Assembly: GCA_005883075.1 (NCBI GenBank)
Contig: VBAX01000052.1
Coordinates: forward strand, 1-49,354
Direction: 5' to 3'
Source of the DNA: Candidatus Bathyarchaeota archaeon
GTDB lineage: Archaea > Thermoproteota > Bathyarchaeia > 40CM-2-53-6
Length of the DNA stretch: 49,354 nucleotides
Shown here: piece by piece, positions 31,034 to 47,545 of the stretch
Layout: every line of letters starts with the position of its first letter
Numbering within the stretch: the first letter of the stretch is position 1
Translations under genes and position numbers: made by a program
The notes under the pieces: generated by a model
Told to the model about the DNA's origin: nothing
What the model saw: only the letters and a program-made list of their open reading frames with translations
The model's database searches: none

Positions 31034-31156
31034 AGAAGATGAAATTCGGTGGATGGGTCATAAGCGTTTCGTGAATCGGCTAAGGAAGAGATTGGAGTAT
31101 CGAGGCTTTGCTGGTCGCTTCATGGTGGGTGCACAGCAGAGAGAGAGGAGGTATGG

Positions 31157-31285
31157 TGGGGCTGGCAGGATTTGAACCTGCGATTTCGTGGGTTCTTGGC
31201 GTGGCGATTCGCTCCCAAGCCACGCGGATTGTCCGGACGCATCGAGGATGTTGTTGTCCTCTAGACCTGGCTATCCGACAGCCCC
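31157..31285 (-). tRNA. tRNA-Pro(TGG) with two introns; CCA at 31154-31156
   Basis: Mature 76 nt: GGGGCTG TC GGAT AGCCAGGTCTA GTCC G CGTGG CTTGGGC CCACG AAATC GCAGG TTCAAAT CCTGC CAGCCCC A. Intron 1 31229-31260 (22/23, 32 nt). Intron 2 31193-31213 (37/38, 21 nt). 76+32+21=129 nt, matching the span. Confidence 0.9.
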
Positions 31286-31541
31286 TCGTTCGCCTCCAAA
31301 GTGCGATGTTGCTTTAGCTCTTACCCTTCTCAATCCACGCTTCGACTCTTTTCTTTCTGACAAAAAGGTGAACCGGAGCTATCTATGCGACCATGATTTT
31401 TGCGTAGTACTAGGTAGGGTCGATCAATCATCTGTGCTGGCCGTGACTCGTGAGAGGCATGCCAGTTTTATACCGGGACCTCTCTACCATATATCTAACA
31501 AACGAAGGGATACAGGACCAAAGACACTCGGTTACAATAAC

Positions 31542-47459: not shown

Positions 47460-47462
47460 TGG

Positions 47463-47545
47463 AGCCCCGGATGGGGGTTGAACCCATGACCTACGGCTTT
47501 TTTGGCTTTTACAAAGCCGTCGCTCTACCACTGAGCTACCGGGGC
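47463..47545 (-). tRNA. tRNA-Thr(TGT) with 11-nt canonical intron; CCA at 47460-47462
   Basis: GCCCCGG TA GCTC AGTGGTA GAGC G ACGGC TTTGTA [AAAGCCAAAAA] A GCCGT AGGTC ATGGG TTCAACC CCCAT CCGGGGC T. Mature 72 nt + 11-nt intron = 83 nt span. Confidence 0.88.

Follow-up and report, generated by a model that had tools for sequence, protein, structure and literature searches.

Introns at non-canonical tRNA positions, including 22/23, are known in archaea with BHB splice motifs (Marck and Grosjean 2003; Sugahara et al.; reviewed in PMC4090602). They have 3-nt bulges around a 4-bp helix, are relaxed outside the anticodon loop, and often accompany a canonical 37/38 intron. Pyrobaculum islandicum has a three-intron tRNA-Pro(UGG) that combines canonical and non-canonical introns, the latter at 25/26 and 56/57 (PMC4090602). 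A tRNAscan-SE 2.0 survey of 217 archaeal genomes gave 0.21 introns per gene overall and 0.84 in Thermoproteales, with a maximum of 1.54 in P. calidifontis (71 introns in 46 genes, PMC8450103). In the intron-rich Thermoproteales sets, single genes carry as many as three introns at scattered sites (PMC8450103), and intron transposition between tRNAs has been reported for this group (PMC4033280). Caldiarchaeum subterraneum, from a TACK lineage outside Thermoproteales, has D-arm introns as well (PMC3293823). No report or survey of Bathyarchaeia tRNA introns was found in the open-access literature searched.

Here, we analyze a tRNA-Pro(UGG) gene in a 49,354-nt stretch of DNA (the window) from a Bathyarchaeia archaeon. 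It resembles the P. islandicum gene in tRNA species and in pairing a canonical with a non-canonical intron, and differs in the non-canonical site, which is 22/23 here; a sister genome has both 15/16 and 22/23. Its introns share the features of known non-canonical archaeal introns, but the organism is a Bathyarchaeia archaeon from soil and does not belong to Thermoproteales. Since 22/23 introns and multi-intron tRNA-Pro(UGG) are already documented in other archaea, this gene taken alone is unremarkable among intron-rich archaea. The main finding is that the gene is typical of its Bathyarchaeia family, whose density of interruption may surprise specialists.

Gene Structure of tRNA-Pro(UGG)

The host genome (G000) is a 1.9 Mb MAG of 147 contigs, 87.6% complete. 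Pattern matches put its family among MAGs labelled Candidatus Bathyarchaeota, which presumably come from soil, judging from sample names with depths. The gene and its parts are as follows.

31154..31285, minus strand: tRNA-Pro(UGG) gene with encoded CCA (ARAGORN on the spliced form, BHB search, single full-length match in its own genome)
31261..31285, minus strand: exon 1, tRNA positions 1-22, GGGGCTGTCGGATAGCCAGGTCTAG, near-invariant in 15 sequences
31229..31260, minus strand: intron 1, 32 nt, at 22/23 in the D-arm; GTCT/GGAC central helix, AGA/AAT bulges, GGAC/GTCC inner helix
31214..31228, minus strand: exon 2, positions 23-37, TCCGCGTGGCTTGGG, anticodon TGG (15-sequence alignment)
31193..31213, minus strand: intron 2, 21 nt, at canonical 37/38, hBHBh'; CTTG/CAAG central helix, GGA/AAC bulges
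31193..31213 motif, minus strand: flanking helices of intron 2; GCG/CGC inner, CGTGG/CCACG outer
31157..31192, minus strand: exon 3, positions 38-73, CCCACGAAATCGCAGGTTCAAATCCTGCCAGCCCCA, followed by CCA (15-sequence alignment)
31311..31323, minus strand: TAAGAGCTAAAGC, likely promoter (BRE/TATA-like) element, 26-38 nt upstream of the tRNA

The encoded CCA (31156-31154) lies directly 3' of the gene body (31285..31157, minus strand), whose 129-nt span equals 76 + 32 + 21, as had been predicted. Removal of both segments leaves a clean 76-nt cloverleaf with the D-stem closed by a U13-G22 wobble, and ARAGORN called tRNA-Pro(tgg) on this 76-mer. The unspliced gene gave no ARAGORN call even with introns allowed, a mode blind to D-arm introns, and its Rfam score was 14.9 bits.

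A custom finder was used to evaluate all removals of up to three BHB-compatible segments with the acceptor stem and T-arm fixed. Its top solution placed introns at 22/23 and 37/38 with a score of 29.7. Intron 1 ran AGGAC...GGACAA between exon ends AG and TCC, and intron 2 ran AGCG...CAAGAA between GG and CCC. The original prediction of a tRNA-Pro(UGG) with introns at these two sites was thus right to the base, the independent finder having reached the same best solution. When the interior was shuffled 2000 times with dinucleotides preserved and the acceptor stem and T-arm again fixed, the maximum was 25.8 and no shuffle reached 29.7. Under the first scoring, the runner-up register for intron 1, 12/13, scored 27.4 against 29.6, a deficit of about 2 points. 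Registers 12/13 and 21/22 were both rejected by cloverleaf or BHB criteria.

The full hBHBh' motif proposed for 37/38 is present with all its helices and bulges: two 3-nt bulges and a 4-bp central helix, flanked by exonic and intronic helices, which is the BHB definition. The relaxed BHB proposed for 22/23 is likewise present, with 3-nt bulges and with central and inner helices of 4 bp each, and its outer helix is weak. The relaxed form of a BHB calls for two bulges and a central helix, plus one or more flanking helices. The 22/23 motif is rightly called relaxed because its outer (exonic) helix is essentially absent, so its cleavage would depend on relaxed specificity.

The upstream box TAAGAGCTAAAGC is kept at about the same distance in 13/13 genus loci listed, one of which has TAAAAGCTAAAGC in its place, and the flanks diverge. 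This pattern suggests that the box is likely a promoter element. The host Pro-CGG gene (interrupted at 15/16 and 23/24) and Pro-GGG gene (20b/21, 30/31 and 45/46) also have interrupted D-arms.

Conservation and Evolution of the Introns

Both introns are kept in 13 congeners and one sister-genus genome (G018), the latter aligned in a form without its 15/16 intron. Exon columns are near-invariant and the introns diverge in sequence and length. Intron 1 ranges from about 20 to 32 nt, with the exon D-arm columns remaining tRNA-like. In the 15-row alignment, the mature helices are 100% paired, and pair 12-23, whose halves lie on either side of intron 1, shows a compensatory change between A12-U23 and C12-G23. 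When the partners were moved by 1-3 columns, pairing fell to 30-53%. The intron 1 inner helix passes through compensatory states (GGAC/GTCC, AGGC/GCCT and AGAC/GTCT), and the intron 2 inner helix likewise has paired changes among relatives. In total, 96% of splice-motif cells are paired, vs 24-45% when slid. The alignment rows are related, so shuffle counts are not readable as probabilities. Because one of the rows had served to propose the structure, the share of paired cells is somewhat biased in its favor, and the compensatory changes are free of this bias. On these alignments, the slide control and the multiple paired states are hard to explain other than by conserved structure.

A single mismatch occurs in the outermost pair of the intron 1 inner helix in two congeners and in the 37/38 central helix in three congeners. 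Four genus genomes (G004, G008, G010 and G014), one of them 95% complete, yielded no ortholog. One congener (G009) has two tRNA-Pro(UGG) copies with differing introns (L139 and L014), which points either to mixed strains in the MAG or to a genuine duplication of the gene. The archaeal intron-containing tRNA was also found in a record titled "bacterium isolate Centralia_MAG_577" (L047), which is probably a mislabelled Bathyarchaeia MAG.

The G018 ortholog (L023:1443-1585, G018:C51) has three introns, two of which fall in the D-arm. The 15/16 intron is 24 nt long, and those at 22/23 and 37/38 are 20 nt each (76 + 64 = 140 nt). One intron of G018 was read by hand, having escaped the finder because of a mismatch beside the bulge. 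A search of other families of the order for tRNA-Pro gave clear orthologs in only four genomes (families f2 and f5). In the order-level relatives G021, G024, G026 and G029, the D-loop is interrupted by an intron near 15/16, and no intron is evident at 22/23. The simplest reading of these few genomes is that the 22/23 intron was gained in this family and the 15/16 intron lost in this genus, with G018 retaining both. The three-intron gene is a possible intermediate in intron gain and loss.

Putative Splicing Machinery and Alternative Readings

A search of the genome for heteromeric EndA subunits, suggested in the original prediction, returned two EndA-family genes, on contigs C18 and C134. Two separate PF01974 genes are present in each of 7 genomes (the host and six relatives, low-intron ones included). 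The alpha subunit (189 aa) matches A. pernix EndA with an E value of 4e-42 and has an intact Y, H, K region. It carries K-P-K at the site of the K44-P45-R46 crenarchaea-specific loop of A. pernix (GIPKPKP vs DVEKPRG); the conserved Lys-Pro/Val-Arg/Lys of this loop and its role have been described (PMC12397907). The second subunit (about 172-176 aa) is without the Y and H and keeps one lysine, as expected for a structural subunit. Its gene (L040) lies between hisS and an eIF2B/MtnA-like gene, with the same neighbors in the class-level relative G042. An RtcB ligase gene is also present in the host genome. The gene content points to a two-gene (alpha-beta)2 endonuclease with one catalytic subunit, whose assembly and specificity are predicted. 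The A. pernix (alpha-beta)2 enzyme (PDB 3P1Z/3AJV) similarly has two genes, a Y/H/K catalytic subunit and a K-P-(R/K) loop. Heteromeric endonucleases of this type accept relaxed motifs (PMC7714728).

From the gene anatomy, conservation, covariation and enzyme genes observed here, we infer how transcription, cleavage, ligation and intron accumulation would proceed. A TATA-like box some 30 nt upstream would drive transcription of the precursor. Both the canonical anticodon-loop motif and the relaxed D-arm motif would be cut by the heteromeric (alpha-beta)2-type endonuclease, between nucleotides 2 and 3 of the bulges. RtcB would join the exons into the 76-nt tRNA plus CCA, and the 32- and 21-nt introns would be released, possibly as circles. 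Such a broad-specificity enzyme would tolerate introns nearly anywhere in a tRNA, and in this Bathyarchaeia family almost every tRNA gene found would have accumulated them. The locus is very probably a functional, single-copy archaeal tRNA-Pro(UGG) gene with two BHB introns predicted to be spliced by protein enzymes.

The absence of a standard ARAGORN call and the 14.9-bit Rfam score would also suit a tRNA pseudogene in decay, or a tRNA-like element, whose D-arm had received an insertion by chance, the UGG tRNA coming from another gene. Exactly one UGG-Pro gene was found in the 87.6% complete host MAG, however; a second intact copy, named beforehand as a refuting observation, did not turn up there. 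Near-invariant exons and fully paired mature helices in 15 sequences with diverging introns, together with the conserved CCA and upstream box, also speak against decay. Low scores are shared by most other tRNA genes of the host because those genes carry introns too. Decay is therefore exceedingly improbable. Retention of the D-arm insertion, giving an expanded D-arm in the mature tRNA and splicing only at 37/38, would agree with the full fold, in which the insertion forms its own hairpin. Yet its ends form a BHB-type motif with a conserved central helix and a compensating inner helix, and it ranges in length between about 20 and 32 nt, with exon D-arm columns that stay tRNA-like. D-stem pair 12-23 covaries across it, and the sister genome has it together with a further D-loop intron. 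Retention is very unlikely.

Intron 1 could instead be real and spliced one base to the left, at 21/22, leaving ATCC in place of GTCC. This register offers a Watson-Crick U13-A22 pair in the host, and relatives with GGCC give the same product either way. It loses the 4-bp central helix, however, as GGTC/CGGA is unpaired, and G22 occurs in all relatives, as the 22/23 reading predicts. We give the shifted register a slim chance and retain excision at 22/23.

Introns in the tRNA Gene Set of the Class

tRNA genes were collected by the T-loop motif GGTTCRANYCC, with Rfam tRNA hits added in G000 only, and the same finder, allowing up to three introns per gene, was applied to five genomes.

G000 (host): 28 unique genes, 2.00 introns per gene, 1 intronless
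G012 (same genus): 29 unique genes, 1.97 introns per gene, 2 intronless
G018 (same family): 26 unique genes, 1.92 introns per gene, 2 intronless
G029 (same order): 31 unique genes, 1.06 introns per gene, 10 intronless
G042 (same class): 30 unique genes, 0.67 introns per gene, 15 intronless

In G000, 27/28 called genes are interrupted, and about 70% of the family introns lie outside 37/38. The counts come from incomplete MAGs with about 60% of the expected tRNA set recovered, and single intron boundaries are possibly off by a base or two. By argument rather than measurement, the missing genes are likelier interrupted than intact, because intronless genes are easiest to find. Shuffled interiors of the called G000 genes exceeded the threshold in 0.5% of trials. 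Between isoacceptors shared by G000 and G012, 43/45 introns occupy the same site, with 98% exon identity and 83% intron identity; separate calls on diverged sequences therefore agree.

Among the genes recovered, the intron density of the three family genomes (1.9-2.0) exceeds the highest literature figure found (1.54). The family resembles the Thermoproteales sets in that its genes carry as many as three introns at scattered positions, and differs in density (about 2.0 vs 1.54 per gene among recovered genes) and in showing no sign of recent transposition. The best intron-intron local score in G000 was 11, within the shuffled range of 9-12; since similarity does not rise above the shuffles, there is no sign of recent copying between tRNAs in this genome. 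C. subterraneum, by comparison, has just 13/45 tRNA genes interrupted (PMC3293823). We regard as evenly balanced the broader proposal that this soil family, not one of hot springs, holds the most heavily interrupted prokaryotic tRNA set known (>90% of genes, about two introns each), which arose as unrelated introns were gained and lost step by step and not by copying between tRNA genes.

Other genes gave further observations. ARAGORN reported one tRNA in the window, apparently misassigned: its tRNA-Tyr(gta) at 47460-47545 (minus strand) reads better as tRNA-Thr(UGU) with an 11-nt 37/38 intron, AAAGCCAAAAA standing between TTTGTA and AGCC, and with U73 and an encoded CCA. This gene and its intron length recur in the congener G012. 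In four genomes, tRNA-Trp (L081, L164, L332 and L309) combines a 61-68 nt intron at 37/38 with one at 25/26 and another at either 43/44 or 45/46. By analogy with other archaea, the long 37/38 intron may be a box C/D guide intron.

Conclusions

The tRNA-Pro(UGG) gene exposes a lineage whose tRNA genes standard searches mostly miss or misread. Bathyarchaeia are abundant and uncultured, so both their tRNA sets and the completeness estimates derived from tRNAs may be wrong. Within one class, intron density runs from 0.67 to 2.0 per gene with the same endonuclease type in all genomes tested, a gradient that separates an enzyme permitting introns from the accumulation of introns. The class lends itself to studies of how introns are gained and lost, as in the sister genome with both 15/16 and 22/23 introns.
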